From positions 37,895 to 101,894 of the forward strand of contig JBBHKE010000396.1 of assembly GCA_037447655.1 (NCBI GenBank): a stretch of 64,000 bases of DNA, given 5' to 3'. A model generated the notes under the pieces. The model worked only from the letters and a program-made list of their open reading frames with translations. It was not told where the DNA came from and ran no database searches. The stretch comes from Zygnema cylindricum (taxonomy: Eukaryota > Streptophyta > Zygnematophyceae > Zygnematales > Zygnemataceae). Shown piece by piece: positions 12,357-60,621 of the stretch (position 1 is the stretch's first letter; every line of letters begins with the position of its first letter). A program made the translations under genes and the position numbers.

Positions 12357-12369
12357 GAATTAAGGGGAG

Positions 12370-28343: not shown

Positions 28344-28356
28344 CTCCCCTTAATTC

Positions 28357-32793: not shown

Positions 32794-33663
32794 TGACCCA
32801 CAGAATGAGCAGCCTATGTAAAGCCTCTAGGATAATATTTGCCCCTTCTACTTTCCCGCTGAATAAGCGCCACCCAGGCACACAAATATTCTGACCACTC
32901 TCACCCTTGTGAGGACAAGACTCCCCTGAGTCAAACGCAAAAAGAATCACTGAATTTGCTCACCCGAGCAGTAAGTTATGGCTGGTCAAAGATGACCTTT
33001 ATAGTTACAAGCTCTCTTAGAGAGAGAGGTACCTAAATATTACTAAGTCTCGGTCTGCCTACTCACGACTACCTACTATTAAACCCTAGTCCAATAGGAA
33101 CACTATAAAGTACAAGAAGGTACAATGGGCGATGTACTTATTGTACAACAATTGTACGACAAGGTCTACAAGGTGACACCTGTCATATCGGAAGCCATGG
33201 TTCCTCCTCCCATCTTCTCCGGTATCAAATAATGTGGCGCCACGTGGCACCGCGTGACGCTATATCCGTATGCCGCCGAAAAGCTCACTTCGCGTGGCGG
33301 CTATAATGCCGGCCGTCCGATCAAAACATATTTTACACGGTTCAGATTCGCGTACATGCAGAAATTGCTCATTTTGGTTAGTCTGCTGTTAATTAGCTGT
33401 TTTGTTAATGTTTATATATTTATGAAACCCGTCACGTGTATCGTTTCGTAACGCCTTAATGGTTAAGGCGTTAGGCTACAAAGAATATAGAGGTCACAGG
33501 TTCAAAATAGTACTAGGCACTATTTTAGCCAAAATACCCTTAACTGCAAAAACTGCCACTTTCTAAATATGGCGGCAGCCATGGCGCGCCTTTGATCCTC
33601 ACTCTCTTTCTTTAAAACAAAACTAAAATAGGGAAGTGAACTATTAATTACCTCTTTTCAACA
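32774..33663 (-). repeat. 5' LTR of Copia B2
   Basis: 890 bp, close to the 3' copy but with a few substitutions and a 3-base deletion beside the tRNA-like module (near 33506), so the insertion is recent but not brand new. Confidence 0.93.
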
Positions 33664-38800: not shown

Positions 38801-40158
38801 TAGTGGCAAAGGGATTTACACAAAAAGAGGGAATTGACTACGAGGAAACCTTTGCCTCGGTTGTCAGATTTCCCTCCGTCCGCATACTTCTCAGCTTGGC
38901 AGCAGCGGAAGACATGGAAGTGCACCAGATGGACATCAAAACAGCCTTTTTGCATGGAGAATTGGAAGAGGAGATCTTCATGCGACAACCCGAAGTGTTT
39001 GTGGAGGAAGGAGAGGAGAGTAAGGTATGCCGGCTGATTAAATCTCTTTATGGTTTGAAACAGGGGCCTCGACAGTGGAATAAGAAGCTTGATGAGTTTC
39101 TTACCGGTCTGGGATATATCCGGATCAGCTCAGATCACTCAATCTATGTTTTCGAAGATGAGGAAGGTTTTATATTTATTGCAATTTATGTTGATGATTT
39201 GCTTGTCTTAAGTAAATCAATGGAAAAAAATAATAAACTGAAAACCGATCTTAAGGGGAGATTTGAAATGAAGTATATGGGGGAAGCAAAATATATTTTG
39301 GGAATTCAAGTAGAGAGAGACCGAAAAAGAAAAATTATAAGATTGACTTAAAAGGAAGCAATAGGGAACATGCTTGAAAAATTTCAAATGGATAAAGCTT
39401 ATAGTTGTATAACTCCAATGGAGTTGAAGAAGGGAAGTGAGGGGAGTGAGGAAGAAGGAGTCATAGTTTTAGACGAGGAATTATCTCCTCAAGGACTGAA
39501 GTTCATGCAGACTATTCCTTACAGGCAAGTAGTGGGAAGTCTAATCTATTTTATGAATTGTACCCGGTCGGATTTAGCTGTAGCTGTAGGAGTGCTGTGT
39601 AAAAGTCTAAATGCTCCCACTAAGAGGGATTGGGAGGCAGCTAAGAGAGTCCTTAGATATGTGATAGGAACTAGGGATCTATGGTTGCATTTGGGTGGGG
39701 AGAATACTGACATCACTACTTGGAGTGATGCCAGTTATGGTGATGCTCCGATGAGGAGATGCACTTCTAGATATGTATTATATGTGGGTGATGGGGCTTG
39801 CTGTTGGAGTAGCAAACAACAAAATGTTATTGCTCAGTCCACCATGGAGGCTGAGTATATGGCCTCTTGCTCTGCTGTAAAAGAATTGATGTGGGTCAAG
39901 GCTTTGCTTGGTGAGCTTGGTCACCTTAAGAGTGGTGTGCAGAAATTTTTTTGTGATAATCAGGCAGCAATCGCTATTTTTGCCAATCCTAAACATCATT
40001 TTAAAGCTAAACACATGGACATTAGACTCAGCTTTGTTAGAGAGAAAGTAGAAAACGGCCAGATAGTGAGATGGTAGCAGATATGATGACCAAACTTGTG
40101 CCTTCCCCTAAGCTAATTTTCTGCAGGGAAAAGTGTGGTCTGAAATTAAAGATTGACT
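35826..40158 (+). pseudogene. Copia D1 gag-pol (many stops and frameshifts)
   Basis: Starts MEVSEFQVMGPPSR at 35826, inside the LTR, reading through the primer-binding site at 35846-35860. Domains can be followed in order: gag, degraded CCHC knuckle (CHFCKKLGQYMAEC, with Gln for His), protease DSGASMHTC, integrase (HKRFGH, RSDNGGEY), RT (MDIKTAFLHGE, YVDD), RNase H (WSDASYGD, CDNQAAI). Breaks include TGA at 36579-36581, TAG at 36624-36626, TAG at 37718-37720, TAA at 39349-39351, a small indel near 36908, and a deletion of about 20 bp near 40058. Compared with D2, most stops come from C-to-T or G-to-A changes. Confidence 0.9.
35846..35860 (+). other. Primer-binding site of Copia D1
   Basis: GGTTATGGGCCCACC directly after the LTR; initiator tRNA-Met anticodon-arm complement. 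Confidence 0.87.
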
Positions 40159-40173
40159 ATAAAATAAGGGGAG

Positions 40174-41233
40174 TGTAGAAATTAACCCTATTTTTTTTAA
40201 AGTATTTTCTAGGTCTGAATAGAAATATGAAAGAAGCCGAGGCACTCTACCTCTAACTTCTCTCTCCAACTTCTCAAACTTGTCGCAGTCACTGAGAAAT
40301 TGGACAAGGAGCTAGAGCTATGGCTACCTAGGCTATCCGGAGGTTTACGGGAAAATATATTTTAGTTAGGGGTTTAATTTACTAAAAGATATGTGCCGGC
40401 GACAGGACTTGATCCTGGTACCTGCCAGGCGGCAAACAGCCGGTAGCCGGTAGCCTTAGCCGTTAGGTCTAGGAGTAGTGTTATGTACTATATGGTTTGA
40501 TAATTAGTTAAACATTTATACGTATGATAGTTCATTTAACTGTAACTGTTTACGGGAGACATATATCCAGTAAATGTAAAAGTACGGATTTCGGTACGGA
40601 TACGAAACCAATACCGCGCATTTATTTCTTTAGTGAAACGAATACCGCGCATGTATTTATTACGGCTACGATTAAATGTGAATTTAATCGGACGGCCGGA
40701 ATTAACGCCGAGATCGCGGAAGAGGATTTCGGCGGTTTGTGGTCATCGCCACATCGGATGACACGTGACGGAATGACATTGGATCACGGCATCTTCGAGG
40801 ATTAAGGGAGCAAATCCGGACATACCACGTGTCGACATTTAGGCCATGTCGTACAATGGCCGTACATAAAGTACACCGGCAGCTGTACTTTTGTGTACGA
40901 ACTGAAATCTGATTGGTTCCGTACATCAGTAGATAGAGTCTGTGAGAGAGATAGGACTTAGAAAAATTAGAAGATAGGACCCTCTCTCCTAGAGAGCTTC
41001 TGTACAAAAGGTCAACTTTGACCCTCCATAACTTACTGCTCAGGGGAGCAAATTCAGATATTCTTTTTGCTATCGACTCAGCGGAGTCTTGTCTTCACAG
41101 AGGTGAAGTTGGTCAGAGTTTTTGTTTGCCTGGGTGGCAGTTATTTTTGCTGAAACACAAAGGGGTCAGGGTTATCCTAGAGGCTTTTGGGAAGCTGTCC
41201 ACTTTGAGGACTTATGGAGGTCTCAGAGTTTCA
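40174..41233 (+). repeat. 3' LTR of Copia D1
   Basis: 1060 bp, preceded by the polypurine tract AAGGGGAG. The two LTRs differ at many positions, in keeping with the decayed coding region. Confidence 0.92.
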
Positions 41234-43258: not shown

Positions 43259-44221
43259 ATGGCAAGACCTAACACTTTTGCACAAAGATTTCCCCGAGCA
43301 CGCTTTCTTCAGCAGTTCTTTTTTTTGACCATATTAGAAGAATGCGGTACGGAGTGGGGAACTTTCGCTGAATCAGTACAGAAAATGGACGATAAGAAAG
43401 GCGAAAGATCGCCTTTTGCGGACATTCCAATTCTGACCGAGGTAAAAGTTGAACTCCAAGCATTACGAGTCGGTGTTGACGCTATTCCACCCCTCATAGG
43501 ATTAATACAAAAACTCCAAAATACTGTGGAGAATTTGGGCAAACAATTAGAAACGTGTTTGACGATGATTGACACGAGGCTCGTGACAGTGCAACGCCAA
43601 ATTCACGGACTGGATTCCAAAGTTGATTGCAGATTTTTGAGGATCAAGTCAAAACTTTTAAGCTCAACACCACCTTTTACGCACGACTTTACTTTTTTTT
43701 TCGCAACCTTCGTTTCTCCCTCCCTCTCATCCTACTCCTCGCCCTCCTCCTCCCTCGTGATATACAAGTTCAACCACTTTTTCATTTCCCCTTTTTGTAC
43801 CCATGTCTTCTACCCAACCAACACCTTCTCTTTCCCAACCTTCTACCTCTACCTATGCTCCCTCTTCCCCTATTGTCTCCACACCGTCTCTTTCCCAACC
43901 TTCTACCTCTACCTATGCTCCCTCCCCCCCTATTGTCTCCACACCTTCTCTTTCCCAACCTTCTACGCCTACCCATGCTCCCTCCCCCCCTATTGTCTCC
44001 ACACCTTCTCTTTCCCAACCTTCTACCCCTACCCATGCTCCCTCCTCCCCTATTGTCTCCACACCTTCTCTTTCCCAACCTTCTACCTCTACCCATGCTC
44101 CCTCTTCCCCTATTGTCTCCACACCTTCTCTTTCCCAACCTTCTACCTCTACCCATGCTCCCTCTTCCCCTATTGTCTCCACACCTTCTCTTTCCCAACC
44201 TTCTCCTCTACCCATGCGCCC
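43259..44221 (+). pseudogene. Unknown host-like gene with coiled coil and S/T/P repeats, 5' part (split by E)
   Basis: An open frame from 43259 gives a predicted helical, probably coiled-coil region (ELQALRVGVDAIPPLIGLIQ, then NLGKQLETC and VTVQRQIHGLDSK). After a pyrimidine-rich gap, possibly an intron, MSSTQPTPSLSQ at 43803 begins a run of 20-residue repeats PSTSTHAPSSPIVSTPSLSQ. The same repeat in the same frame resumes at 54607, beyond element E, which therefore split this gene. I do not recognise the family. A cell-surface or nuclear low-complexity protein are equally open. Confidence 0.45.
43830..44213 (+). repeat. 60-bp coding tandem repeat, about 6.5 units
   Basis: Units are over 90 percent alike with an exact 60-bp period. 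Since 60 is divisible by three and the units lack stops, all three forward frames and one reverse frame stay open. The frame reading S/T/P-rich is chosen because it continues past element E. Confidence 0.93.
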
Positions 44222-46030
44222 TGTCATGCCGCATGTCGTCGGACATTTTAGTTGTTTATATTTAGGCGTTAGACGGGCAGCCGCTACACTAATTTGTATT
44301 TGGGTGTTATTTGGGTTTCGCAAGACTGTACGACGTGTACCGTACGACCTACATTCTCCGTAATTTCCGGGATGACGATTTGGACCGTACCCGCGTTCCT
44401 ACCGAACTATGTATATTTTCCGAGATTTCCGCCGACGGTGGATTTGATTATTTCGCGTCGACCGTACGACTTACGCCGACCGGGATTCCCGCGGCCACAA
44501 TTTACCGTACCATAGATATCTTACGCGATTTCCGCCGACGGTGGATTTCATTATTCTACGTCGACCGTACGACTTACATTAACCGGAATTCTCGCGACTA
44601 CAAATTGGACCGTACCTTCAGTCCTACCGTACCTACTTTCATTTCCTCAAATCTCGGCCGATGACAATTTGAAATCGTTTCGCGTGACGTAGCATCCCGG
44701 CCGTCGACGTTGATTATGTAATTTTAGTAACTTCGCATCTGGACCGTCGAAGTAAATGACAAACAAATCCGTTGTTAGTTCTGACGAAGCTACGCTATTG
44801 GACTATTTTAAGTCGTGAACCATTTGAAGTTGAAGCATTCACATGTAGATAGGAAGGGTTTTAATCCGTAGGTTATAGATTCTGTAACGTAGGGCATAGG
44901 ATTTCGGCTTCCTATTCGTTGAATCCAAACTAGACGCAAATACTTACATATCACGCTGTACTCTGATTGGCATGTTTTCACTAGGCGTAGTTTTGGTTAC
45001 TTAGTTCATTTCGGATCATTTCCTGCACACAATTTTTAAGAGCAGGATTTATTTATTTTATTTATTTTCGGTATTGAGGATTTTCTACAGCCATTTTTTT
45101 ATTTGTAAAATTGTCCGGACAGCTTAGAGGCATCTTTCTGCCTTTGCGTGAAGCATCTAGTTTTCTATTACATTATCAATATCTTGTAAAGCCTTACATA
45201 TTAATCTATACGGCTTCGGCCAAGACCTACACGTTTCCCTTCATTTTTCTCGTCCTTTTGAGTGGATTTCGACCGCGTTCTCACTACACAAACCTCTTTT
45301 CCCGACTGGGGATGAGATTTTATTAGTGTAGAAGTTGCATGTTGGGATATTGATTTGTTGTTTTTATTTCTTGAGATTGTGTTTTTTTTTCTATTTGGCT
45401 TATGCGCATCTTTTGAGTTTGGCTATCTAAAACTTCATAAGTGTCGTGCATATTGTCATTTTCAGTTTTTATTTATCTTTCTCGGTTGTTTATGCTTTGA
45501 TTTATTCTATTTAAGTATAAATTCAGATTATCCTTGATAAGATAACTCCTGCAAGGAATATAAATAGACCGTGGGGCCTAGTATCATCCATCGGCTTAGT
45601 ATTCCTGCACTTGAAAATTGTCGTATTTTCTTTTCTCGCTTGTTTGTTTTTATTTCAATTTCGGTTTTCTTTTTATCTAAAGAAAAAAAAAACAAAAATA
45701 TTTAAAAAAAATCAAAAATATATATTTATATATACATTTCTACGAAAATTTATAAATAGCTTTACATATATAATTACCATTTGCTTATTAGTTGACGTTT
45801 TACTTTATTGGCCAATTTTCGGCCAAGGATATACTACGCTAACTTAAGTATTTGGTTTTTGTTTCCTCCATTTTCTTTGTTATATATATGGGGCATCGTT
45901 TGCTCACATTGAGTTATATTTCAATAAAGAGTGGAGTTAGTGGAGCGGATCCGTTCTTGGGAGCTCTGCAAAACTTCGGTTGTAGCGAACAACCGCAGTT
46001 CACCATTGGCAATCACCAGATTGGTAAGAG
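44222..46030 (+). repeat. 5' LTR of element E (right border uncertain)
   Basis: Begins TGTCATGCC. The first 644 bp are matched by 53774-54418. This part is very rich in CpG (about 8 per 60 bp between 44340 and 44580) and holds a partial internal duplication (TTTCCGCCGACGGTGGATTT and GTCGACCGTACGACTTAC blocks, twice). The rest, 44866 to about 46030, is AT-rich and has no second copy here, so the LTR end and primer-binding site are not fixed. Confidence 0.55.
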
Positions 46031-46170
46031 TGGTATGTAAGTATCACGATGCCTTGCGGGTACAGGCGCGTGCTAAGGTAGTCGGTTGATCGTATAGAGG
46101 GATCGTCGTTGGAGTGGATTAGTGTTAATCCACTTGTATTGAGCATTGCATTTGTCCAGCTTTCCCTGCT

Positions 46171-46420
46171 TGATATCTGGCCCTGAGGGGCCTTGGCTGA
46201 GTTTGCTTTGCCCGGAGTGGGATTTCTTCCATAGATCTTGCCGTTGGAGGCACTGGTTAGCTCTTTTGTGGATTATGCCGCATTAGATCTGCACTTGGGA
46301 GTGCTTGGATAGTAGTTATTTGCCTTTATAGATCTGGCCCTTCGGCCTTGTCCCCTTGTTTGCAGGGTAGAAGGTTTTGGTAATACGGCTTCCTGATAGA
46401 TCTGGCCATCGAGGCCCTGT
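46171..46420 (+). other. Array of five small hairpins in the element E leader
   Basis: Five times, sequence like TAGATCT is followed by a short stem-loop and then YTGG: GGCCC-TGAG-GGGCC (46179), TGCC-GTTGGA-GGCA (46239), GCACT-TGGG-AGTGC (46291), GGCC-CTTC-GGCC (46336) and GGCC-ATCGA-GGCC (46404). Arms differ but stay complementary. It lies between the LTR and gag. Confidence 0.6.
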
Positions 46421-46527
46421 TAGGGATTGATTGGCTGATTGGACAAAAGAGTGGTGTGGCCTGGCATTTGAAGCATATCGGATAGATCGGTTTTGTTATC
46501 TGGTCATCATTTGGTGTTATCATTTTT

Positions 46528-48468
46528 ATGCCCACCAATTGGGATAATCTTGATTATCCTGTCGGAACCACTCGATCGTCGGCCTCGTTTAGGCCCACGG
46601 AATCCGGACCATCAGATTTCTCTAGTCTTTTGGACCATCCTTCCCTAAATATCTCGGGTCAAATTTCCCCTTCGGTTCGATCCACTCTCACCTCAGTATC
46701 TTCCTTATCATCAGTCTCTTCCACATTTTTCGAAGAGGAATCTGACCGCGATTCCCTTGACGGGTCGGATTCCGATTCATTATCTTTTTGGTTTCCGCAA
46801 ATTTCCAAGCTTGTTTTATCTCCAAGCATTCCATTATTGGAAATGGCTTCCACATCCGAGGGGGGGGGCCGCCTTCATTTCTGTTTTTCAGGAATGAAGG
46901 ATACCATGACGTTATCGCATTTTCGAATGCTATTCGATACCGAAATGCGTGATCTTGCATTTCGGTACCAAGATCGGTTCGACCTACGGGTCGCTTTCTC
47001 TCTCTTAGGTCGTTACCTTCGAGGTTCAGCCCTTACTCTTTATTCTCGCAAGTATGATTCCGTACTTGCGATGACAGAGTTCTCTCCGTCTTTTGCTGGG
47101 AGTCCTGCTATTATAGGACAACCAGAAATTCCATACCAACCGGCTATCCCGGAAGTCCTTGATCTCAATGGCGATGTTATTACAGCAGCAGTTGCGGAAA
47201 TACCGCAACAGTTTGCTATAGCCGCACGTGCTGGAATTCCAGCACGACCAGCGATGACGATCCCTATATTGGATCCGCTCTCTGTCATGTTTGAAATGTT
47301 GCAAGCGGAATACCGTAGCAAAACCCTGACCAAGTTCGCGAGTTAATCAACTTCGAACGGAAGTCAAGAGAGACCGCCCCTGCCATGCGTGCTCGTATGG
47401 AAGCTCTTCGTGAAGCATTGCCGGACTTAATTTCGGATGCTGAAGCTGTCCAAAAATTTGTAGGACAGTTTCCGAGTCAGTCTAAGAAATTTATCCAGAG
47501 TCACCTGACTCAAACATATGGCTTGAAGTTCACTTTCGACCAAGCCGCCCAGCATGCCGTGGAATACGAAATGCAAAATTGTTGGTGGGAAGCCCATGAC
47601 CGACCTAAAGCGGTCTCGAAAGAACCGATTGTTCCACCATGGAACAATCCTCGTCTTAACAACTGGCCTCCTAAAGTCCCGGCCATGGGAACGCGACCTA
47701 GTTCTCCCGGAAACCGATTATGTTTCCGATGTGGGAAGACCGAGCATGATGCCCTAATGTGTCCAGACAAAACTGCTTCCTGCCCTAATGTGTCCACATT
47801 GCAAGCAAACCGGACATTATGTCCATCGTTGTCATATAAAAAACCCACAATATTACTATCAGAACGAAATTAAGAGTGGTGGCATTCCAGCTCGATCCGC
47901 AAGCGTGGTTCAACAGGTTAAAGAACCGGAAAAAGACACCACTCCACCTAAGGTATCTCGAAGAGATAGAGAGCGTTTAGAAATGCAAGAGCAAATGGCG
48001 GCTATGATGAAAGAACAATTCGCAGCTTTCATGACCCAAATGAAGCCACAATTTACAAGCATGGCTCGCACTGTTGTACACATGCCCACGTTGGCAGGTC
48101 GAATCTTACGAGATTCCACCATCCAACAACGAGAGGCTACGTTCGATAAAGGTTCGACCGATCACAGTCGTGACGGTAAAACACCTAACACGCGTATTCC
48201 TTTGTCATTCACTAAAGAACCTTCTTCTCTCTTGCCCGAAACCGCTTCAGCCATCGCGGCTGAAGCTCTCAACATAGTGGATCGAACTATACATGAGGCA
48301 CACCGCGTGAAAGAACGCTTGTGCATTCTATCCGCTATGATTTGTGACTCACCAAAAATCTCCCCTATCTCCTTACCCTCTGATAGCTCAGCTGCAGCTG
48401 CCGCGTTACAAGCACTTCAGCTGCACAAAAATCTTGCTGCTATTCAGCCTATTTCCATAGAGGAGTGA
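46528..48468 (+). pseudogene. Element E gag with two zinc knuckles (frameshifted)
   Basis: Three overlapping frames together form gag: 46528-47346 (Ser-rich start MPTNWDNLDYPVG, then a capsid-like region GLRMLFDTEMRD-type with LLGRYLRGSALTLYSRKYD), 47385-47873 (helical ALPDLISDAEAVQKFVGQFP and a CCHC knuckle CFRCGKTEHDALMC), and 47788-48468 (second CCHC knuckle CPHCKQTGHYVHRC, then a Met/Gln-rich helical tail). A frame change just after 47330 and another between the knuckles break it. In the family this packages genomic RNA in cytoplasmic particles. Confidence 0.75.
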
Positions 48469-48516
48469 AAGTCTCTCGATCCTCACATCAGTTTTTTAAA
48501 TAATGCGAAGGGTGCA

Positions 48517-49197
48517 TTGTTGATCAATGGTATAGCCCCTTCCCTGCCTCTCATGGATTCGGGTGCAAAGCCGGTGATATTGGGCTCTAGCTTTGCACTG
48601 AAGCTTGGTATAACTCTGAACAAGCTTCAGTCCACTTCTACTCGCTTGTTAACATCAGCGGGAACAACCAAACGTGTCCTCCGAATCACTAAGGAACCGC
48701 TTGTTTTCAGGTTCCAGAACGAAACGGCCACAGACTTTGCTGAAATCTCAGTTCACGCTCTAGTCACTAAATGTACTGACTATGAATGCCTAGTGGGACA
48801 GGACGTTATATTTCGTGTAGGGGGTGGTGTTGACATGCATGATCAGACATTTTGTTATAGGCCCACTAGCTTCCCGGAACGCAAAATCTGCATTCCGCTA
48901 ATTTCCGCTAGGAAGCCCATGCCTATTATGGCAAATTCGGCCACCTCCATACCTGCATTTTCAGGGAATTCGGTGGGGGCCGAAATATTTCATTCATTGT
49001 CAGCAGAAGAAATTCTGCCTGATAGTTCTTACTTACCAGAAATTTTCAGTGACCCAAGTTTTCTTATAGATACGAGGGAATTTGACCAAATCTATAACCA
49101 ACCTTGTCAATTCCACTTTCTCCGGTCTCTCCCCCAATCCCAATCCCTACAGACTCTTTTGGGTTTCTTCCCATTGATTGGAATCCGGTCCAATTGA
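48517..49197 (+). pseudogene. Element E retropepsin-like protease region
   Basis: LMDSGAKPVILGSSFALKLG is the active-site loop of a retroviral-type aspartic protease (D-S-G-A, where D-S/T-G-A is normal), followed by a DYECLVGQDVIF strand resembling the second conserved protease segment. It matures the polyprotein in intact relatives. The frame runs past the protease and ends in GIRSN at 49197; the methyltransferase begins in another frame that overlaps it from 49104, so an indel near 49110-49150 separates them. Confidence 0.7.
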
Positions 49198-50211
49198 AAC
49201 CTCATCGAAATGGATTAGTGATTTTGGACCTTTTCGCTGGAATAGGCACTTCTCTCCTTCCATGTTTGCGGGACGGATTATTAATCCGATTTTATTATTC
49301 GGTGGAGATTGATCCGTTAGCACGGAAAGCACAATTACATCATTGTAATCTGTCGCATTCCCAATACCCGCATTTGTTACCAAAATCTGCATACGACCCT
49401 CCCACAAGACATTCGGATTGTGGGCAACCATCACTTACTGGAGATTGGTCCAATCGATCTTGTTTTTGGCGGATGGGAGTGCCAGGGAATGTCTCGTGCC
49501 GGGAAAGGTCTCGGATTAGCCGATCCCCGCACCAAATTATTTTATGAGTTGGTTCGCATCCTGCATTTTCTACAAACTTTAGATCATCCTATGGGCTATA
49601 TCTTGGAAAATGTCGCAGCCTACAATGATCCAAGACCTACAATTTTGGCTGATTATCAACGAATTGAACAATTAATTGGTCCGCCTCTTATTATTGACGC
49701 GGCTCGCCATGGTTCACTAGCACACCGGGTTCGCTCCAAATGGATGAACCTGATCGATATTGGTAGACTCCGTGAGGCCAACTTGTTAGTTCGTCCTCCT
49801 CATTCATACATTCAGGCTGCCCTTCTTCCTTTTCATAAGGTGCAGCCTTGCATTCAAAAGGACTGTCCCCCTAATTTCAGTGTCAATGTCCCGGGTCAAC
49901 CTCTCAAGGTGCTTCCTACCTTAGTTTCTTACCCACATTCACATGCATTCTCTAATGACGGTCCTGGCATGCTCCGAAACATTCATACCGGTGAGCTCGA
50001 AGAGCCTACCTCTACGGAACGAGAACACCTAATGCATTTCATTCCCGGCACTACTGCCGCTCCTGGTCTTACTGAACGTCAAAGATGCACTTTATTAGGT
50101 CGTGTCATGGACCCTCAGTCTTTGTCTTTTGTTTTAGGTCTTGGGTATTCAGCTGGTCGCCACTCAAAGCACATCCGTCTCAACCAGCTAGGGGGGGGAA
50201 TGCATCACTAA
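49104..50211 (+). pseudogene. DNMT3-like C5-cytosine DNA methyltransferase domain in element E
   Basis: Motif I VILDLFAGIGTSL (49224 onward) is the SAM-binding loop, followed by YYSVEIDPLARKA (motif II). After one frameshift near 49400, the second part reads IDLVFGGWECQGMSRAGKG (motif IV, catalytic Cys at 49480-49482), LADPRTKLFYELVRILHFL, GYILENVAAY (motif VI, Glu at 49606), LIIDAARHGSLAHRVRSKWM (motif VIII) and TERQRCTLLGRV (resembling the DNMT3 C-terminal RQKLLGR motif). Motif order is not permuted, and spacing and the ENV and RxR contexts fit DNMT3 better than DNMT1 or DRM. The usual Pro-Cys is Glu-Cys here. It lies between protease and RT, so it was part of pol. The frameshifts make this copy inactive as it stands. 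DNMT-bearing retrotransposons are known from charophytes and dinoflagellates. Confidence 0.87.
50191..50198 (+). other. G8 run at the end of the methyltransferase domain
   Basis: CTA followed by eight G and AATG. It resembles the G10 run before the 3' LTR (53571-53580) and could be an internal polypurine tract, or simply a slippage-prone homopolymer. Confidence 0.35.
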
Positions 50212-50501
50212 GAAAATCTTTCCGTACCACTCTCCAAGGGACCACATTTCATTTTTTCCTCTTTCCTTCTCCAATTCCACCAGTTCCGGAAATCTCTATC
50301 TACGATTTCCTCAATCTTAGCCATATGTCCTGGTCTATTCCCACATACACGGTTGTCCAGTCTACAAGTCCCATGCATATTCCACCCACTCCTCATTGGA
50401 GTGTTGCTTTTCCAACACGCAGTTAGAATCATTCAGTTAATTGCCTTAAACAGACACGTGTATTTTACAAGTTAGGTCAAACGCTTATCGCAAATGAGCA
50501 G

Positions 50502-51814
50502 TTGGCCTTTGCACAAGCCATGGAAGCTATGACAACCGAAAATCCCGATGCTCATAAATGGAAATTTGGCACCAATCTAACAAAGGCCGAACAAGAGTTA
50601 CTGAATGACGTAGTTTTACAAAATATCAATGCCTTTGCCTTTTCTATGAATGATTTGGGTCGTCACACCGCTTATAAAATGTCGATAGATCTCGAAGATG
50701 ATCGCCCTATATTTAAACCGAAACATCGTTTGTCAGAAACTGAATAGGAAATGGTAGACAAGCGATGTGCTGAACTAGAGGAAGCTGGCCTAATCTATCG
50801 GTCAGACTCCACATTTGCAGCTCCCACTGTCATGCCTCGGAAAAAGGATTCCGATGGTAATTTTACTGAACTTCGAATGTGAGGTGACTATCGTGAACTA
50901 AATGCTAGAACAGTTCAAGATCGCCATCCCATGCCTCTTGCCGAAGAAATATTTGATCATGTAGGCGGAGCAAATTATTTTAGTATCCTTGACCTCTGTC
51001 AAGGATTTAATCAAATCGAGATAGAGGAAAAAGACCGGCATAAAACTGCCTTTTGGGGTAGCGACGGCCGATGGGAATGGGCCGTAATGCCATTCGGACT
51101 GAAAAATGCTCCGTCAGTATTTCAAAAAGTCATGGACTCCGTTCTTGGAGGCTGTAAGTTTGCTAGATGTTACATCGATGACCTTATCATTGCCTCGGCT
51201 ACTATCGAAGAGCACGCTGCTCACATCGAATGGGTATTGACTGAATTGAAAAAGGTCGGATTAAAATGTCATCCAACGAAATACACCTTTGGAGCCCTGG
51301 GAGTGCCTTACCTCGGCCATTTTATCTTGGCTGAGGGGATCACTCCTCTCGAAGCAAAGGTAGAGGCAATCAATAAATTGCCTGCTCCCACGGACCTCAC
51401 CAGTCTGCGAGCCTTTCTCGGACTTGCTAATTATTATCGCAGGTTCGTACTCAATTTCAGCACAATCGCATCTCCTCTAAACGATCTTCTCAAGAAGGAA
51501 GTGGCGTTTATATAGGGTCCCGATCAGATTTCCGCATTTCAAAAAATAAAAACCGCCTTATTGAGTGCTCCAATTCTCCGTCCTCCCAATCACAAACTTC
51601 CTTTTTGTATCCAAACAGATTTGGAAAACCCGGAATCGCTGCCATCTTGACACAAAGAGAGTTGAGCGGAGAGGAATACGTAGTTGCTTACGCGAGTAGA
51701 AGCAATAACCGGGCTGAATCAAATTATATTAGCTACGAAAGAGAGTGTCTAGCCGCGGTTTGGGGTGTCGTTCACTTCCGCCATTATTTGTACGGAAACC
51801 TTTCACACTCTTAA
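50502..51814 (+). pseudogene. Element E reverse transcriptase and RNase H start
   Basis: RT begins in the 50502 frame (PIFKPKHRLSETE), has a TAG at 50745-50747 and a TGA near 50880 (in an RM-GDYRELN motif), then is open from 50931: YFSILDLCQGFNQIEI, KTAFWG, MPFGLKNAPSVFQKVMD, the catalytic CYIDDLIIAS (51172-51183), CHPTKYTFG, LGHFILAEGI and LRAFLGLANYYRRF. These are standard Ty3/gypsy RT blocks. A TAG at about 51513 separates it from the connection/RNase H region (AAILTQRELSGEEYVVAYAS, ESNYISYERECLAAVW). A frame change near 51798 follows. Confidence 0.87.
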
Positions 51815-53435
51815 CTGACCATCAGCCCTTACATTGGCTGATGACGAACGATAAGCTTTCCGGGAAGTTAGCCCGATGGGCTTTAATCTTACAAGAATAT
51901 GACGTTGAAATAATTCAACGACCAGGTCTGCTTAGTCTAAACGCAGACGGAATTTCCCGAAATCCTTTGCCCCGAACAACAGATAACGGAGTTCGACAGG
52001 ATTTCGATGACGTTGATGTTCCCGTCATATCAATAGGTACTTATCTTACTTACTGCCTGGCTTCTATTCCGAACCCCCGTCTCGCCACAGATCCTTGGCG
52101 TGATGGGCCTCTCATTCTTTTCCTATCCTCCCAGACCTTCTGGTCCGGCACGACCACTGATGAAGAAGACAGAGTGAAAAAGAGGGCCAAAGGTTACCTT
52201 TGGCTCGGGGGATCTTTAGTTCGGTTGTTGGCAGACGGAAGCCATAGGCACGTTCCACGGCCTACCAAGCATCTTTCTCTCATTGAGCAGATTCACACCA
52301 AGCTTGGTCACTACGGTACCAAGCGAACGTTAAGTCTAGTTCAGGCACGATATTGGTGGTCAAGAATGCAAGCTGATCTTGCTGCTATTGTGCACAAGTG
52401 TGCCACCTGTGACCGTCTCCGAACTTCTTTTTCTAACCAGCAGACTACGCTCCAACCTCTACCTATCAGGGGTTTGTTCTATCGATGGTCAGTCGATTTA
52501 GCCGGACCTTTTCCTATCTCACGTAGGGGGAAACAATACATCATGATTATGATTGAAAATTTCAGTAAGTGGGTAGAAGTTGTAGCTCTGCCTCAGAAGA
52601 CAGCTAAGTTAACCACCGCAGCTTTTAAGGAACATGTCCTTATGAGATACGGTGCCCCAGCCGAGGTCCTTACGGACAAGGTACAGAATTTCGGGGAGAA
52701 TTTCAAGAGATGCTTGATGAGGCTCTCATCGATCATCGTCGTACTAGTCGGGATCACCCCCAGGCCGATGGCCTGGCTGAACGAGCAGTCCAGACATTTA
52801 AGCGTGCCTTGCGTAAGCATTGCTTAGAAAAACACATTTCAGTTTGGGACGAGTCCCTCGGTAACATTACCATGGGATATCGCATGTCGGTGCAAGCTAG
52901 TCTGGCTAATTTCATCCCGTATTATGTTTTATTTGGGCGACAACCGTTGCTCGGTCGCAATATTCAGAAGGCCGCAAGCTTCCAACTTCCGCTGATGTTT
53001 GACACTATTTTTTTGGAAGAACTCACTCGTCGTGCTTTGCTTTTTGCCCGTGAAATGCCCATGGCTTTTGATAACCTGCAGATTGTCCAACATCGGGACA
53101 CACTTCGGTTTGCCACCACTCGCAGCGGAAATTACAGGCCGCAACAAAAGCCCTATCGGGTGGGAGATTATGTTTATCTTCGCAGGCAATCTTTTGACAC
53201 TTTGGACACGGATGTTTCTGCACACATCTTACGGATTATCGAGGTGGATCCGAACGGGATGTTAGGATTACAAGGAGCAGACACGGATTTTTCGAGAGCA
53301 CTCCAAGAATTGTTCTCCATGTTACTTACCAGATTTGTCGCAGGATATGGATCCTATGCGGATGCCGATTACGGAGGCGACGGCATGTACCTTTTGTCAT
53401 CGATCGGACGGGGAAACTACCATGTTACTTTGTGA
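51745..53435 (+). pseudogene. Element E RNase H end and integrase
   Basis: From about 51795 the frame reads PFTLLTDHQPLHWLM (RNase H end), then a spacer, the HHCC zinc domain (HTKLGHYGTKRTLSLVQARYW with CATCDRLR), and the integrase core: WSVDLAGPFP (first Asp), EVLTDKVQNFGENF (second Asp). A frameshift near 52710 leads to HPQADGLAERAVQTFKRAL (catalytic Glu) and a C-terminal region with YRVGDYVYLRRQ, a GPY/F-like segment. The order RT, RNase H, integrase is diagnostic of Ty3/gypsy. The Gly after the second Asp (TD-x-G) is replaced by Val. Confidence 0.85.
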
Positions 53436-53562
53436 TCACTGGAATCAGGGGTTTCACATGGAGTGTTTGGTGCCACCTTTATTGGCAGTTCCGGACGATC
53501 AGTGGTTTTACCACGGATGTCGCGAGCTACCGGTCGCCTTGGCCAACTCCTCTGCCGGCTAA
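53320..53562 (+). pseudogene. PHD-finger-like domain after the element E integrase
   Basis: In the frame starting about 53320: ACTFCHRSDGETTMLLCDHW, NQGFHMECLVPPLLAVPDDQ, WFYHGC. This follows the Cys4-His-Cys3 PHD pattern with correct spacing (CxxC, LLCDxx, GFHxxCL-PPL-VP, WxxxxC). Two of the eight zinc ligands are replaced: the fourth Cys by Trp and the seventh by Tyr, both one-base changes from Cys codons. It is out of frame with the integrase by one indel. In chromatin proteins PHD fingers read histone H3 tails; on an integrase it could guide target choice. The ancestor probably had a working finger. Confidence 0.68.
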
Positions 53563-53570
53563 AGAGCTGT

Positions 53571-53580
53571 GGGGGGGGGG
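53571..53580 (+). other. G10 run, possible polypurine tract of element E
   Basis: Ten G follow the coding region. The LTR proper (TGTCATGCC) begins 193 bp later at 53774, so if this is the polypurine tract it is unusually far away. Alternatively the true LTR includes the intervening 193 bp, which the left LTR lacks. Confidence 0.35.
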
Positions 53581-53773
53581 AATAAACCGACCTAACCATA
53601 ACCAGCTAAGTCGTTGACTTTTCTTTTTCTTCCACCTTGCCTGTTGCGGTATCTATCCATTTGTACTTTTTTGTTTTATTTCATTTACGATATCTCGTTA
53701 TCATTTGAGTTTAAGTTGAGCACAGTTGATGATATTCATGCATCTTCATGTTATTTGACACATGCACGACAGC
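53581..53773 (+). repeat. 193-bp segment, first copy
   Basis: AATAAACCGACCTAACC to CATGCACGACAGC; repeated at 54416-54606 with moderate divergence. It lies between the G10 run and the truncated 3' LTR. Confidence 0.88.
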
Positions 53774-54418
53774 TGTCATGCCCCATCTCGTCAGCTATTT
53801 TAGTTGTTTATATTTGGGTGTTAGGACGGGCAGCCGCTACACTAATTTGTATTTGGGTATTATTTGGGTTTCGCAGGACCGTACGACGTGTATCGTACGA
53901 CCTACATTCTCCGTGATTTCCGGGATGGCGATTTGGATCGTACCCGCGGTCCTACCGTACGACGTATATTTTCCACGATTTCCGCCGACGCGGATTTGAT
54001 TATTTCGCTTCGACCGTACGACTTACGCCGACCGGAATTCCCGCGGCCACGACTTACCGTACAATAGATATCTTACGCGATTTTTGCCGACGGTGGATTC
54101 GATTATTTTACGTCCACAGTACGACTTACATTACCCGGAATTTCCGCGATTACAAATTGGACCGTACTTTCGGTCCTACCGTACCTACTTTCATTTCCGG
54201 AAATCCTGGCCGACGACAATTTTTAATCGTTTCTCGTAAAGTAGCATCCCGGCCGTCGACGCTGATTATGTAATTTTCGTAACTTCGCATCTGGACCGTC
54301 GACGCAAATGACAGACAAATTCGCTGTCAGTTCTGATGAAGCTACGCTATTGGACTATTTTAAGTCGTGAACCATTTGGAGGTTCACGCATTCACATGTA
54401 GATAGGAAGGGGTTTAAT
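53774..54418 (+). repeat. Truncated 3' LTR of element E
   Basis: 645 bp matching 44222-44865, including the CpG-rich part and its internal duplication. Homology stops in a short TTTAAT stretch where the second copy of the 191-bp segment begins. Confidence 0.87.
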
Positions 54419-54606
54419 AAACCGACCTAACCATAACCAGCTAAGTCGTTGATCTTTCTTTTTCTTCCACCTTGCCTGTTGTTGTATTTACCCATTTTTA
54501 CTTTTATGATTTATTTCATTTCCGATATCTCGCTATCATTTGAGTTTAAGTTGAGCACAGTTGATGATATTGCATGCACCTTCATGTTATTGGACACATG
54601 CACGAC
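54416..54606 (+). repeat. 191-bp segment, second copy
   Basis: Duplicate of 53581-53773, joined on the right directly to host 60-bp-repeat sequence (CCCTCTTCCCC). The arrangement suggests template switching or unequal recombination at the element's end. Confidence 0.87.
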
Positions 54607-55200
54607 AACCCTCTTCCCCTATTGTCTCCACACTTTCTCTTTCACGACCTTCTACCTCCACCAATGCTCCCTCCTCCCCTATTGTCTCCACGACTACTCA
54701 CGACCCATCTTATGTTGACCTTGATGCATTTCCTATAGATTGGGCCAATTGGCAAGGATATTCCTTACAAAGCAATGGGCCTAATGTTAATGTTGAATGT
54801 ATATTCAAAAAGTATCATTATGGACAAAATGGTCATCCTCCAATAAAGTTGATAACGGGCATAAAAGGAAGAACGAAATACACAAAAAAGGGATCTTTGT
54901 ATCCGATATGGGCGGAAGGAGAACACTCGAAGTGGGCCCGGTGTAAAAAAAATGTGCAATGTATTGAAAAATTAATGTATTGAAAAAATAATGATAGTTC
55001 CAGGGTGTGATTTGATGAAATCAATACACTTTTTAGAAAAGCTTAGAATAGAGAAGTTTGATGGGAGCACGGCGGAACTTAAAGAAGCTTTAGGTATCTC
55101 TACTGAACTGGTTTCCAAAGGTCGCTTGAAGCACAGAGAATTTGAGCGAAAATTGACCCGATATCAAAAGTTACAAGAGTTGCGTGCAATCACGGGCTAA
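54607..55200 (+). pseudogene. Unknown host-like gene, 3' part (after element E)
   Basis: The S/T/P repeat resumes (SSPIVSTLSLSRPSTSTNAP) and passes into a globular stretch: THDPSYVDLDAFPIDWANWQ, then GYSLQSNGPNVNVECIFKKY, GQNGHPPIKLITGIKGRTKY, ending at a TGA near 54983. A further frame from 54991 (KSIHFLEKLRIEKFDGST, GISTELVSKGRLKHREFERK) is charged and helical and ends at 55200. Aromatic residues and the HPPIKLITGI block suggest a folded domain I cannot name; a similar layout is seen at 33764-34335. Copia D2 inserted 19 bp after its end. Confidence 0.45.
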
Positions 55201-55218: not shown

Positions 55219-56266
55219 TGTAGAAACTAATAGTTTTATTAGTATTTTCTAGGTCTGAAAAGAAATATAGAAGTCGAGGCAGTCTATCTCTAACTTCTCT
55301 CTCCAACTCTCAAACTTGTCGCAGTCACTGAGAAATTGGAGAGGAAGCTAGAGCCATGGCTACCTTGGCTATCCTGAGGTTTACGCGAATTTTATATTAG
55401 GGTTTATTTATTTAAGTAAAAGTCATGTGCCGGCGGCAGGATTTGATCCTTGTACCTACCGGCCGGCAGGCAGGAAATAGCCGGTAGCCTTAGCCGTTTA
55501 GTCTAGCGGTAGTGTTACGAACTATATGGTTTGATATTTACTTAAACATTATCAGGTAGGATAATTCATTTAACTCTAACTGTTTACGGGATACATAGAT
55601 CAAGTAATGTAAAAGTACGGATTACGGTACGGATAAGAATTAAATACCGTGCAGTTATTTCTTTAGCGAAAAAAATATCGCGCATGTATTTATTACGGCT
55701 ACGATTTAAAATGAATGTAATCCGACGGCCAGAATTAACGCCGATATCGCGGAAGGGAATTTTGGCGGTTTGTGGTCATCGCCACATCGGATGACATGTG
55801 GCAGAATTACATTGGATCGCGGCATCTTCGAGGATTAAGGGAGCGAATCCGGACATACCACGTGTCGACATTTAGGCCATGTCGTACAATGTCCGTAAAG
55901 AAAGTACATCGGCAGCTGTACTTCTGTGTACGGGAGTGTACTCTGATTGGCTCCGTACATCAGTAGATATAGTATGTGAGAGAGATAGGACTTAGAAAAT
56001 TAGGAGATAGAACCCTCTCTCCCAGAGAGCTTCTGTAAAAAAGGTCAACTTTGACCCTCCATAACTTACTGCTCAAGGGAGCAAATTCAGAGATTGTTTT
56101 TGCTATCAACTCACGGGAGTCTTCCCTTTACAAGGGTGAAGGTGGTCAGAGTTATTGTCTACCAGGGTGGCAGTTTTTGTTGCTGAAAGAGAAAGGGGTA
56201 AGGGTAATCCTAGAGGCTTCTTGGAAGTTATCCACTCTGAGGACTTATGGAGGTCTTAGAGTTTCA
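55219..56266 (+). repeat. 5' LTR of Copia D2
   Basis: 1048 bp, TGTAGAAACT to GTTTCA, with the D-type antisense tRNA-like module at about 55427-55505. Confidence 0.92.
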
Positions 56267-59200
56267 GGTTATGGGCCCACCCTCTAGGGTACCAATCTTT
56301 AATCGAACTGGCTTCATATAATGGGAAAGTATGATGATAGGAGCTCTATGCGAAAAAAGGTTTTGGGGGATAGTGAGTGGACGGTTGGGGCGTCCATCAA
56401 GTCTTGGAATCCCTCCAGGGTTTGGAGGAAGCAGATTCACCAAGAAAGAGGATCCACCTTCAACGGAGGAAACAAAGGAAGGAGAGGTGGTGGACAAAGG
56501 AAAGGAGAAAGAGACGACCACACCAATAGCAACTGGTTCGGCATTCATGTCACCTATTCCGAGGAACGAGGAGAATGATATTGAAACCTGGGACTTCAAC
56601 ATATGGCGGCAAAGCACTTCATCCTACGCCATCTCACTCAAGGACTTGCATGTCCTCATTTGCAGGTAGAAAGGGCATCCGATCTTTGGATGGCTCTCAT
56701 AGAGATGTACCGAAGTGGTACGATTCAGCAACAACAGTTGGCTGATCAGAAAGTTAACGAGTATGTATACAAAGGGGGAAATATGTTGGATTTTTGCAAT
56801 GAGTTTGCTACACTCTTCATGGAGCTAGAGAGTGCGGGAAAAGTTTTTAGTGAAAAAGAAAAGGTTAACTGTTTACTGATGAAGTTACCTGATGAGTTCG
56901 AGAACATAGTCAACCGTGTGCAGGACTTGCCGGACTCAAGGTGGATATGGAACTCAGTGGTAGGGATGATTCTCGTTCGAGAGAATACGATTGAGATCCG
57001 AAGGGGAGGAAAGAGTGGCCAAGCCTTGGCAACAGCGACCGATTGGAGGAACAAGGATTCACGGAAACCGGTCGGAATCTATAGGGGGAGGGAGCAGAAT
57101 AATGAGGTTGACGAGTTCGAACCAAGGGCTCCCAAAGGTTTATGTCATTTTTGTAACAAACCGGGGCACTATATGGCAGAGTGCACTAATCTAACCAAGC
57201 TTCGGTTAAAGGAGGGGCAGACCGGTGGTACCCCGAGAAGAAAGAAAAAGGCCCTTGTCACACAGGTACTTGAGGCAGAATCCGAGGACGAGGACGATGA
57301 GCTCCTTTTGGATGAGGAGTTGGAGGCGAAAAATGAGGTTAAAATTCCACGAAGGCAGAAATGTGTTTACGGTGGATTGAAAGGTGAAGCAGGCTAGATT
57401 ATAGATTCAGGTGCCTCCATGCACATGTGTAAGGATAGGCACCTGTTCAATAAGATAAGAAAGATTCCCACCGTAGAGATAGAGTACGGGGATGGGAGGA
57501 TAGTCACCACTACTCTTGTAGGATTGGTAGATGTGAAAGTGTTAGTAGAAGGAAAGACATCCATATTAACATTCTCCGATGTATTGTTTATTCCGGAGCT
57601 GAACAAAAACCTTATCTCTACATCTGTATTAGATGATAAGGGTTTTTTCACTAGCACTAGGGAAGGAGTCTTTACTGCTAGTTTTGAGGAGGATGTCTAT
57701 TTCATTGCTGAGAAAGGTAGCCATGGGATGTTTAGGCTGATCTTAAGTAATGAAATAAAGAAACTTTATTATGCTGGTGTTCATGATATTATGATGTGGC
57801 ATAAGAGGCTTGGGCATGTGAATCTAGATAAGTTAAGAGAGATGAAAAAGATGGGAGTGGTAGAAGGGATTCAGTTCAGTGAGAGTGATGATATAAGTGA
57901 TTGTAGTGGGTGTGCTCAAGGTAAAGCACACAGATTACCCTTTCCTAAAACAACCACCTATAAGGGAGAAAAAGTTATAGATTTAGTACACACAGATATT
58001 TGGGGACCGGCTAGAGTGCCCTCACCGGGGGGGGAAGAGATTTATGATGACTATAACTGATGATTGGTCTCGGTATTCCCGGGTATATTTTTTGAGAAAC
58101 AAGTCAGAAGTTGAGGATTGTTTTAGACAATATAAAACATGGAGGGAAACACTCCATGAAACTCTAATCAAGAGAGTAAGGAGTGACAATGGTGGAGAGT
58201 ATAATTCTAACCAGTTTGAGGATTTTTTGAGGGAAGATGGGATCCAACACCAAAAGACAGTACCAGAAAATCCGGAACAGAATGGGGTAGCTGAAAGGTT
58301 AAATAGAACACTAAGTGATAGTGCTAGAAGTATGTTGTCAGATAAGAAGATAGGAAAATGGTTTTGGGTAGAAGCAATGAACTGTGCTAATTTCCTCAAA
58401 AATAGAGTTATTACTTCAGCTATAAAAGATCAAACACCTTATGAGATATGGGCAGGCCCAAAACCAGACATATCTCACTTAAATGTTTTTTGCAGTCAAG
58501 TATTCAGTCTAGATACAGATCGGTCTAATTCGAAGCTAGATCCTAAAGGAAAACCGGGATACTTATTAGGATATGATGAGGATGTTAAAATTATATAGAG
58601 TTTATGATCTAAAAAGGGAAAATATAATCTAAGTAAAGCATCTAGTAGTTATGGATGAAGGAAAGTCTGTAGATCCCTTCAAATATACGAAGTCAGTAAA
58701 AATCAGATTTGAGTCAGAAAATTCCGATGACTTTGAGCTTCCAAACTATCCAGGTTTTAGAGAAGATGACATTCTTGCAGGAATAAATCAGACTGAAAAG
58801 GACTCGGCTGTGGAAACTCCAGTGACAAGTCTACTCGAAGCGGAAGACGTGGTGGAAATTGATTCGGAATCAAGGGATAGGGGAGAAGCCGAGTTTGTTC
58901 GAAAGAATCCACGAGAACCATCTATTCCGGCCTCAAATTTTGAGGGGGGAAGGAGAAATAGCAAAAGACTGCAAGAAAAATAGGTTAATAACAAGGTAAC
59001 TAAACTATCTCATCAAGCTGAACCTCAAAGTTATGGAGAGGCGATGACTTGTCCAGAAAGAAATCGGTGGAAGACAGCCATCAATGAGGAGATGCCCTCA
59101 ATTATGGCAGCCGATACTTAGGAGCTAGTGGATTGTCCACCTAACCAAAAACCAATCGGTTGTAAGTGGGTTTTCAAATTAAAACTGAACCCAGATAACA

Positions 59201-60608
59201 CAATGGAGCGCTACAATGCCCGATTAGTGGCAAAGGGATTTACACAAAAAGAGGGAATTGACTACGAGGAAACCTTTGCCCCGGTGGTCAGATTTCCCTC
59301 CGTCTGCATACTTCTCAGCTTGGCAGCAGCGGAAGACATGGAAGTGCACCAGATGGACATCAAGACAACCTTTTTGCATGGAGAATTAGAAGAGGAGATC
59401 TTCATGCGACAACCCGAAGGGTTTGTGGAGGAAGGAGAGGAGAGTAAAGTATGCCGGCTGATTAAATCTCTTTATGGTTGGAAACAGGCGCCTCGACAGT
59501 GGAATAAGAAGCTTGATGAGTTTCTTACCGGTTTGGGATATATCCGGATCAGCTCATATCACTCAATTTGTGTTTTTGAAGATGAGGAAGGTTTTATATT
59601 TATTGCAATTTATGTTGATGATTTGCTTGTTTTCAGTAAATAAATAAAAAAAAAATAATAAACTGAAAAACCAATCTTAAGGGGAGATTTGAAATGAAGG
59701 ATATAGGGGAAGCAAAATATGTTTTGGGAATTCAAGTAGAGAGAGATTGAAAAAGAAAAATTATAAGATTGACTCAAAAAGAAGCAATAGGGATCATGCT
59801 CGAAAAATTTCAAATGGATAAAGCAAATACTTTTACAACTCCAATGGAGTTGAAGAACGGAAGTAAGGGGAGTGAGGAAGAAGGAGTCATAGTCTTAGAC
59901 GAGGAATTATCTCCTGAAGAACAGAAGTTCATGCAGACTATTCCTTACAGGCAAGTAGTGGGAAGTCTATTCTATTTTATGAATTGTACCCGGCCGGATT
60001 TAGCTGCAGCTGTTGGAGTGCTGAGTAGAAGTCTAAATGCTCCCACTAAGAGGGATTGGGAGGCAGCTAAGATAGTCCTTAGATATTTGATAGGAACTAG
60101 GGATCTATGGTTCCATTTGGGTGGGGAGAATACTGACATCACTACTTGGAGTGATGCCAGTTATGGTGATGCTCCGATCAGGAGATGTGTTTCTGGATAT
60201 GTATTATATGCGGGTGATGGGGCTTGCTGTTGGAGTAGCAAACAGCAAAAAGTTATTGCTTAGTCCACCATGGAAGCTGAGTATATGGCCTGTTGCTCTG
60301 CTGTAAAAGAATTGATGTGGGTCAAGTCTTTGCTTCGTGAGCTTGGTCACCTTAAGAGTGGTGTGCAGAATTTTTTTTGTGATAATCAGGCAGCAATCGT
60401 TATTTTTGCCAATCCTAAACATTATTTTAAAGCCAAACACATGGATATCATGCTCAGCTTTGTTAGAGAGAAAGTAGAAAACAAAATAATCAGTTTAGAG
60501 TACTGACCAGATAGTGAGATGGTAGTAGATATGATGACCAAACCTGTGCCTTCCCCTAAGCTAATTTTTTGCATGGAGAAGTGTGGTCTGAAATTAAAGA
60601 TTGACTAG
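56247..60608 (+). pseudogene. Copia D2 gag-pol (many stops and frameshifts)
   Basis: MEVLEFQVMGPPSR starts in the LTR at 56247 and hits a stop near 56319 (TAA where D1 has Tyr). A one-base deletion near 56600 follows, then an open gag stretch with an intact CCHC knuckle (CHFCNKPGHYMAEC), TAG at 57395-57397 (Trp in D1) just before protease DSGASMHMC, a G-run slip near 58028, integrase (RSDNGGEY, NGVAERLNRT), a broken linker, TAG at 59119-59121, RT (MDIKTTFLHGE, YVDD), stops near 59641 and 59750, RNase H (WSDASYGD) with a TAG at 60261-60263, and the terminal TAG at 60606-60608. D1 and D2 are broken at different sites, so they decayed independently. Confidence 0.9.
56267..56281 (+). other. Primer-binding site of Copia D2
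   Basis: GGTTATGGGCCCACC directly after the LTR; same initiator tRNA-Met anticodon-arm complement, fully conserved despite the decayed coding region. Confidence 0.87.
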
Positions 60609-60621
60609 AAAATAAGCGGAG

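Follow-up and report, generated by a model that had tools for sequence, protein, structure and literature searches.

Judging from its sequence, a DNMT3-type cytosine methyltransferase domain is a built-in part of the Gag-Pol of a large family of Ty3-like retrotransposons, family A, in which it lies between protease and reverse transcriptase (RT) and is kept by selection. The element found in the window, that is the whole stretch of 64,000 nucleotides analysed here, is to all appearance a decayed copy of this family. The identity of the domain and of the family, a DNMT3-type methyltransferase in a Ty3-like element, is close to certain.

The window element spans positions 44222-54607; it is of Ty3 type and broken, and its DNMT3-like methyltransferase sits between retropepsin and RT (Table 1). 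As the original prediction had stated, the motifs DLFAGIG (49227-49247), GGWECQG (49468-49488), ENV (within 49606-49623), AHRVR (from 49720) and RQRCTLLGR (50077-50103) are all present and the copy is frameshifted, with the methyltransferase split over the two frames 49098-49547 and 49321-50211. The match to the Pfam family DNA_methylase (PF00145) covers 49321-50208. Gag, protease-DNMT and pol are all disrupted, and ten stop-to-stop pieces of at least 120 aa were found between 46486 and 53435, on the forward strand. The retropepsin announced upstream corresponds to a weak match (48469-49194, Pfam E 0.0022, below the Pfam cut-off) with LMDSGAK, which recurs in other copies, and the YIDD-type RT was found downstream, followed by RNase H and integrase. 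The closest solved relative of the window RT is that of Ty3 (4ol8), with an E value of 1.3e-45. The element shows the Ty3/gypsy order protease-RT-RNase H-DDE integrase together with a Ty3-type RT; plain LTRs at both ends, also a Ty3/gypsy trait, were not seen, and split repeats are present instead. No tyrosine recombinase (phage-integrase family) was detected in the pieces scanned by Pfam, in which H2C2 and rve were matched instead. The Pfam scan of the gag-like pieces from 47319 onward, outside which the piece 46486-47346 lay, gave no match.

Table 1 Features of the DNMT-bearing element of the window, in window positions
Feature	Position	Strand	Remarks
Left flank	43821..44221	.	60-bp minisatellite array; the final 4 bases, GCCC, are the left target duplication
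Left repeat A	44222..45602	+	begins TGTCATGC; 44222-44865 matches the right A too, the remainder matches A of copy C1915
Gag-like coding region, two frames	46486..47873	+	zinc knuckle 47721-47762
Second zinc knuckle and linker	47758..48468	+	knuckle 47791-47832; no Pfam match
Retropepsin-like protease	48469..49197	+	LMDSGAK 48550-48570; Asp_protease_2 E 0.0022, below cut-off; found in other copies
DNMT3-like domain, first frame	49098..49547	+	motif I DLFAGIG; no Pfam match alone; aligns with L031
DNMT3-like domain, second frame	49321..50211	+	motifs IV, VI, VIII, X; PF00145 E 2.5e-10
Ty3-type reverse transcriptase	50883..51515	+	RVT_1 E 1.1e-27; YIDD at 51171
End of RNase H, H2C2 zinc finger, beginning of DDE integrase	51733..52827	+	Pfam
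Remaining integrase, different frame	52629..53435	+	no Pfam match on its own
PHD finger, in open stretch 53266-53559	53386..53508	+	PF00628 E 1.2e-7, above cut-off; directly 5' of polypurine tract
G-run (polypurine tract)	53571..53580	+	adjoins repeat B, directly 5' of B
Internal repeat B	53581..53771	+	92.7% to 54416-54607
GC dinucleotide joining GCACGACA, the terminus of B, to TGTCATGC, where A starts	53772..53773	+	proposed integrase site of the circle
Internal repeat A	53774..54415	+	about 737 bases shorter than left A
Right repeat B, right element end	54416..54607	+	ends GCACGACA
Right flank	54608..54691	.	ACCC, the target duplication with one mismatch, plus units of the minisatellite

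The DNMT3-like character proposed for the domain was borne out, its closest PDB relatives being DNMT3A/DNMT3B (best E 6.5e-11), followed by DRM2. With an AlphaFold2 model of the related protein P0001 (mean pLDDT 71; residues 171-430 at 74-96 per ten-residue block), the 50 best fold matches were all DNMT3 entries, with about 20% identity in the fold alignments. As in the catalytic domains of DNMT3A and DNMT3B, which gave the best sequence and fold matches, motifs I to X are unrearranged, with the DNMT3-type AHR.R and W.N. A DRM identity was rejected, the motif order of DRM being rearranged whereas family A runs from I to X. The catalytic cysteine, the glutamate of ENV, R.R and W.N are retained in family A and in the window copy. 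Family A differs from DNMT3A/DNMT3B in its motif IV, where glutamate replaces proline (EC for PC) in 7/7 family A sequences and in the window copy, as well as in 5/5 Closterium sequences and in 8 of the 17 rows of a second clade; the proline is kept in the families B and C of the same genome (7/7) and in Klebsormidium and a near relative (2/2). It differs also in that DNMT3A and DNMT3B carry an ADD domain beside the enzyme, whereas the PHD finger of family A is far off in pol. In the phylogeny, a tree with long branches that has DNMT3A as its single DNMT3 row and no row of DNMT1, CMT or DRM, the element domains grouped with DNMT3A at 100/100 against M.HhaI, DNMT2 and phage Dcm.

The host genome also contains a CMT-like exon (L007), with best match 9mvy at 3.4e-29 and a match to 4fsx, which we take to be maize ZMET2, and a DRM-like fragment (L090, C2414:41528-41908), which matches DRM2 at 2.1e-25, up to motif IV. 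L090 and a second place on the same contig (C2414:27597-27959) match motifs I-IV of DNMT3A only. DRM has been reported from streptophytes only (PMC12344493), and the CMT-like exon and DRM-like fragment indicate a streptophyte host. When human DNMT3A served as query, no separate host DNMT3 gene emerged from the 138 candidates scored out of 510 (best 53 bits), although an intron-split gene could be concealed in the unread rows; the readable loci among the 12 fetched were family B. A viral origin found no support in two scans of viral contigs with single sequences, which reach close relatives only: one gave an ordinary phage Dcm, 25% identical, and the other nothing.

The genome searched, with the DNMT domain of copy L029 as query, comprises 2689 contigs that total 352,776,454 bases. 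At a lower bound, family A numbers more than 100 copies (119 of 1871 candidates scored; 121 listed matches, 67-100% identical), and stop-free coverage of at least residues 1-328 of the 337 of the domain was found in 12 of the 121 matches listed. Intact copies, on which the prediction for the family depended, exist in the host genome: of the 30 best copies, four carry protease, methyltransferase and RT in a single uninterrupted frame. L047, L052 and L054, in which protease and RT motifs were recognised, have no stop in the 1337 residues read; in L058 one frame of 933 residues spans protease, DNMT and RT. The domain order of L052 is CCHC-protease-DNMT-RT-RNase H, and the open frame around its DNMT reaches 2395 residues. 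The presence of protease, methyltransferase and RT in one open frame in these four copies argues for a real capture and not for chance.

The stop-free methyltransferase copies look selected. For the nine stop-free DNMT sequences of family A, the median omega was 0.194 (0.163-0.326) in the 8 of 36 pairs that were usable, the other 28 having been dropped as saturated or with dS <=0.02; the pairs share sequences and are hence not independent, and not every usable pair is below 0.2. DNMT copies with stops gave a median of 0.431 (189/190 pairs). The protease behaved in the same way, with an omega of 0.313 (32/66 pairs) compared to 0.610 for copies with stops (21/21 pairs). The RT showed no selection contrast, the value for stop-free copies (0.429, 8/36 pairs) not being below that for copies with stops (0.347, 36/36 pairs).

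We found also that pol ends in a PHD finger (PF00628), which was recognised in the window copy, where it has its own frame, and in C1344 (E 5.4e-12), C232 and C2526 (range of the three, 5.4e-12 to 1e-9). In C1344 the PHD stretch (L075) and the L052 stretch share their reading frame, and the 1.65 kb that separate them are unread. Solved relatives of this finger include the PHD fingers of PHF12, KDM5, KAT6 and UHRF1. The finger is absent from the original prediction and adds to its description of pol; with it, family A unites a methylation writer with a finger of chromatin-reader type in one polyprotein.

As to function, the leading reading, which we hold tentatively, is that the methyltransferase, delivered together with RT and integrase, would act on newly made DNA of the element itself, before insertion or at about that time, with the PHD finger perhaps positioning it. 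The CpG content speaks to some extent against self-methylation in family A. The CpG observed/expected ratio was 0.70-1.01 in 31 stretches of the family (from 30 loci and a portion of the window copy) and 1.04 in the window element, compared to 0.64-0.73 in 8 B/C loci, 0.73 in the entire window and 0.52-0.70 in six further stretches of repeats within it, whose ORFs, where inspected, are copia-like. Family A thus shows no CpG depletion as a sign of self-methylation, and no footprint of long CG methylation.

A second reading, which we regard as unlikely though somewhat less so given the PHD finger, is that host chromatin at the target site, and not free cDNA, would be the substrate of the methyltransferase; the PHD finger would serve as reader, and the element might in this way be placed or kept in methylated, tolerated chromatin. 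This agrees with the position of the PHD finger, which closes pol in family A and in the relatives P0006, P0026 and P0030, and with the lack of CpG depletion in family A. However, an enzyme fused into Gag-Pol, with protease on one side and RT on the other, stays with the cDNA, and the PHD finger and the DNMT, situated at opposite ends of pol, may separate after processing. It is also doubtful, and slightly more so, that the domain is retained because it binds or helps RT/integrase to assemble, with catalysis lost or much reduced. The glutamate of motif IV, beside the catalytic cysteine in all family A, window and Closterium sequences, would suit such a loss, and the Klebsormidium relative, although that family has PC, gave no methylation in yeast, in a test that its authors grade as inconclusive (PMC5890265). 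The retention of the catalytic cysteine and of the other motif residues in family A and in the window speaks against it. Motif VIII has gaps in 4 of the 5 Closterium rows.

All four copies with both ends seen carry split repeats, A-coding-B-A-B, and not plain LTRs. In the window the same 60-bp minisatellite lies on both sides of the element, and the flanks joined with one 4-bp copy restore an unbroken array (94.5% over 91 columns, one gap). The repeats of C1344 are 100% (A, 931 bases) and 99.6% (B) identical to each other and those of C1915 99.6% (A) and 99.5% (B), and C2526 is older (A pieces 86-88%, B 79%). The left ends are TGTCATGC; the right ends are GCACGACA in three copies and altered in C2526. 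TG...CA ends with 4-bp target duplications were found in 3 of the 4 copies, TTGG/TTGG and CCCT/CCCT in the young ones and an inexact GCCC/ACCC in the window; C2526 showed no clear target duplication. Tandem or truncated plain LTRs were excluded by the TG...CA ends, the target duplications and the minisatellite flanks.

Of the 12 copies with the 3' part read, 10 have the B|A joint, and in all 10 it consists of exactly two bases (GC in 7, AC in 3), in a reading that would have detected spacers of 0 to 5. A second B was seen in 9 of these 10 copies, and none in C1147 within 2 kb. C783 (L082) and C2293 (L087) stop after a single B; the supposed left end of C783 rests on 13 matching bases, with no matching 4 bp, and for C2293 no left end was found. 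The A|B joints vary: they are clean in C1344 and C1915, and the usual end of A is missing in C1407, C232 and the window. In C1407, A is about 235 bases shorter than in its close relative C1344; the left A of C1407 and C232 is unread, so that the shortening could be inherited. The A|B joint of C2526 extends beyond the end of A, and its B is short of 51 bases. Near-constant joints are common too, since among the same-strand B pairs (40 scored of 333 candidates) four are spaced 1576-1579 bases apart, one of them that of C2573; a fifth is spaced 1712. No primer site of tRNA type (TGG) was found after the left A.

We consider it fairly probable that the element inserts from a circle. A primer site downstream of A and the G-run that precedes B would start reverse transcription, giving a linear DNA with LTRs of the form B-NN-A, since with a G-run just before B plus-strand synthesis should begin the LTRs at B; the outer ends of such an LTR would not be TG...CA. 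The linear ends would then be joined, sometimes imprecisely (the joint A|B), into a two-LTR-type circle, and the DDE integrase would cut both strands after CA at the near-palindromic GCACGACA-NN-TGTCATGC inside one LTR, leaving two CA-3' ends with 2-base 5' overhangs. Such ends are the usual product of retroviral integrase processing. The circle opened at this place would insert as A-coding-B-NN-A-B, with TG...CA ends and a 4-bp duplication, and a one-LTR circle would give A-coding-B. The single-B copies C783 and C2293 fit a one-LTR circle, and equally B-B recombination. Integration from two-LTR-type circles was once proposed for retroviruses and later dropped.

That A-coding-B-A-B is instead copied as such from RNA to DNA, with no circle, is in our view improbable. 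This form is common to all four copies with both ends seen, and the four B pairs of nearly equal spacing tell that the joint can be constant, both of which such copying would accommodate; yet the usual strand transfers between G-run and left A would yield an LTR B-A, unlike the observed form, and A|B differs between the close relatives C1344 and C1407 while B|A is constant at two bases. If insertion from a circle is true, these elements would be living systems for testing DDE-integrase integration from circular retro-DNA, and methylation of that intermediate.

Three DNMT-bearing families are present in this one genome. In families B and C the domains follow one another as protease-DNMT-RT, and their DNMT is about 40% identical to that of family A and 54-59% between the two. 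An in-frame TAG followed by CAATTC (UAG-CAA-UUC) parts protease from DNMT in 23/23 B/C loci with the motif, among which are L001, L003, L006, L008, L018, L024 and L030; the pattern fixed CAR-TTY-NNN-ATY-TC after a free codon, loci without the motif were left uncounted, and four extra matches were in unrelated frames. The upstream 100 codons hold no other stop in 15 of these 23 loci. No such in-frame stop occurs in the intact family A frames. The UAG-CAA-UUC of B and C resembles UAG-CAA-UUA, the readthrough context of tobamoviruses, and TAG-CAATTC is likely to be a stop-codon readthrough site in these families, for which it is a candidate.

Protein searches gave 30 related proteins, the named sources being Klebsormidium nitens, Closterium NIES-54 and NIES-53, Mesostigma viride and Haematococcus lacustris. 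In a first arrangement (Klebsormidium P0009, Mesostigma P0019, Closterium P0020 and others) the order is protease-DNMT or DNMT-RT. In a second, DNMT comes after RT and RNase H: RT precedes DNMT in P0005, P0006, P0008, P0017 and Haematococcus P0030, and nine rows were also assigned here by integrase or RNase H matches and P0011 solely from its neighbours. In P0024 (Haematococcus) the protease is far upstream, and the protein contains no RT. PHD fingers were listed for many relatives and confirmed in P0006, which also has a sub-threshold Tudor-like match, P0026 and P0030. P0026, which is closest to family A in its RT, is ordered DNMT-RT-RNase H-integrase-PHD, and PHD-bearing pol proteins occur in both orders, with DNMT before RT (P0026) and after RNase H (P0006, P0030).

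A phylogeny of 48 DNMT rows, without the partial P0026, placed the 15 rows of the second arrangement in one group (99/99), with P0002 and P0024 inside. Family A was recovered at 100/100, and with P0001 and P0003 at 99/98, B plus C at 100/99 and Closterium at 100/100; all element rows stood apart from DNMT3A at just 82/78. The RT tree (21 rows) showed the same four groups, and DNMT and RT have travelled together within each of them; the backbones of both trees are weak and Ty3 is the sole gypsy RT without DNMT included, so that the domain may have been captured once or several times. An unrelated gene landed by chance between protease and RT, for which nothing speaks except the broken state of the window copy, is ruled out for all practical purposes by the recurrence of the module, joined in one frame, elsewhere in the genome, by the more than 100 copies and four open joint frames, and by selection and the congruent trees. 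The original prediction would have fallen with the lack of an intact copy joined to pol, or with a phylogeny of an unrelated gene, and neither outcome occurred.

The capture of DNMTs by retrotransposons, which the original prediction gave as known, is indeed published for a charophyte gypsy element: KnitGypsy-Dnmt3 of Klebsormidium nitens is described with a gypsy pol bearing a Dnmt3-type domain, DIRS-like repeats and purifying selection (de Mendoza et al. 2018, PMC5890265). As described there, it resembles family A in the Dnmt3-type domain within the gypsy Pol ORF, found here in 4/30 loci, and in the DIRS-like A-coding-B-A-B form, found here in 4/4 copies with both ends, two more ending in a single B. 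The partial K. nitens protein P0009 (KFL_013780020) has the order knuckle-protease-DNMT, as here. The two differ in that their domains are 35-37% identical and that motif IV is PC in Klebsormidium and EC in family A. SymbioDIRS-Dnmt3 and SymbioLINE-Dnmt of dinoflagellates, described as unrelated to the gypsy case, are likewise retroelement-borne cytosine methyltransferases, with A-coding-B-A-B in the DIRS type, but are reported to have a tyrosine recombinase or a LINE endonuclease, whereas family A has a DDE integrase (PMC5890265). PAT/Ngaro-type elements are described with similar split direct repeats, A1-B1-A2-B2, and with a tyrosine recombinase, no integrase and no target duplication, in contrast to the DDE integrase and 4-bp duplications of family A (PMC4157794); split repeats otherwise characterise tyrosine-recombinase elements that make no target duplication. 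A 2025 paper describes DNMT3 members in retrotransposons of streptophytes and dinoflagellates, termed Copia and DIRS (PMC12344493).

In the main text of PMC5890265 the words PHD, readthrough, polypurine and target site duplication are absent, the sole TSD concerning LINEs, and the K. nitens element may still share these traits. Relative to that text, the PHD finger, the EC motif, the putative B/C readthrough site and the evidence from the joints may be new, unless some of these belong to the published element as well; the presence of three families in a single genome and of relatives in Closterium, Mesostigma and Haematococcus, at two positions in pol, also go beyond it. In the literature, supplements and preprints being outside the scope, we found no paper on circle insertion of such elements, nor on their green-algal spread beyond PMC5890265 and the papers citing it. 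The Klebsormidium case is no curiosity, captured-DNMT3 elements being abundant and apparently selected here, with relatives in streptophytes and chlorophytes. For this green-algal DNMT3-gypsy lineage as a whole, we propose as a possible scheme, put forward with reserve, that end-joined circular cDNA would be opened by the DDE integrase at the two-base joint, that the methyltransferase would write on the circle and the PHD finger read the target chromatin, and that in B and C the enzyme would be made only by UAG readthrough, tying its dose to Pol.

Other repeats were observed in the window. Two inverted repeat copies, at 7055-13261 and 27452-33663, are 98.8% identical over 6.2 kb, and an element that is copia-like by its ORFs is present in two copies, 91% identical, at 34787-41233 and 55219-61675, which flank the DNMT element.
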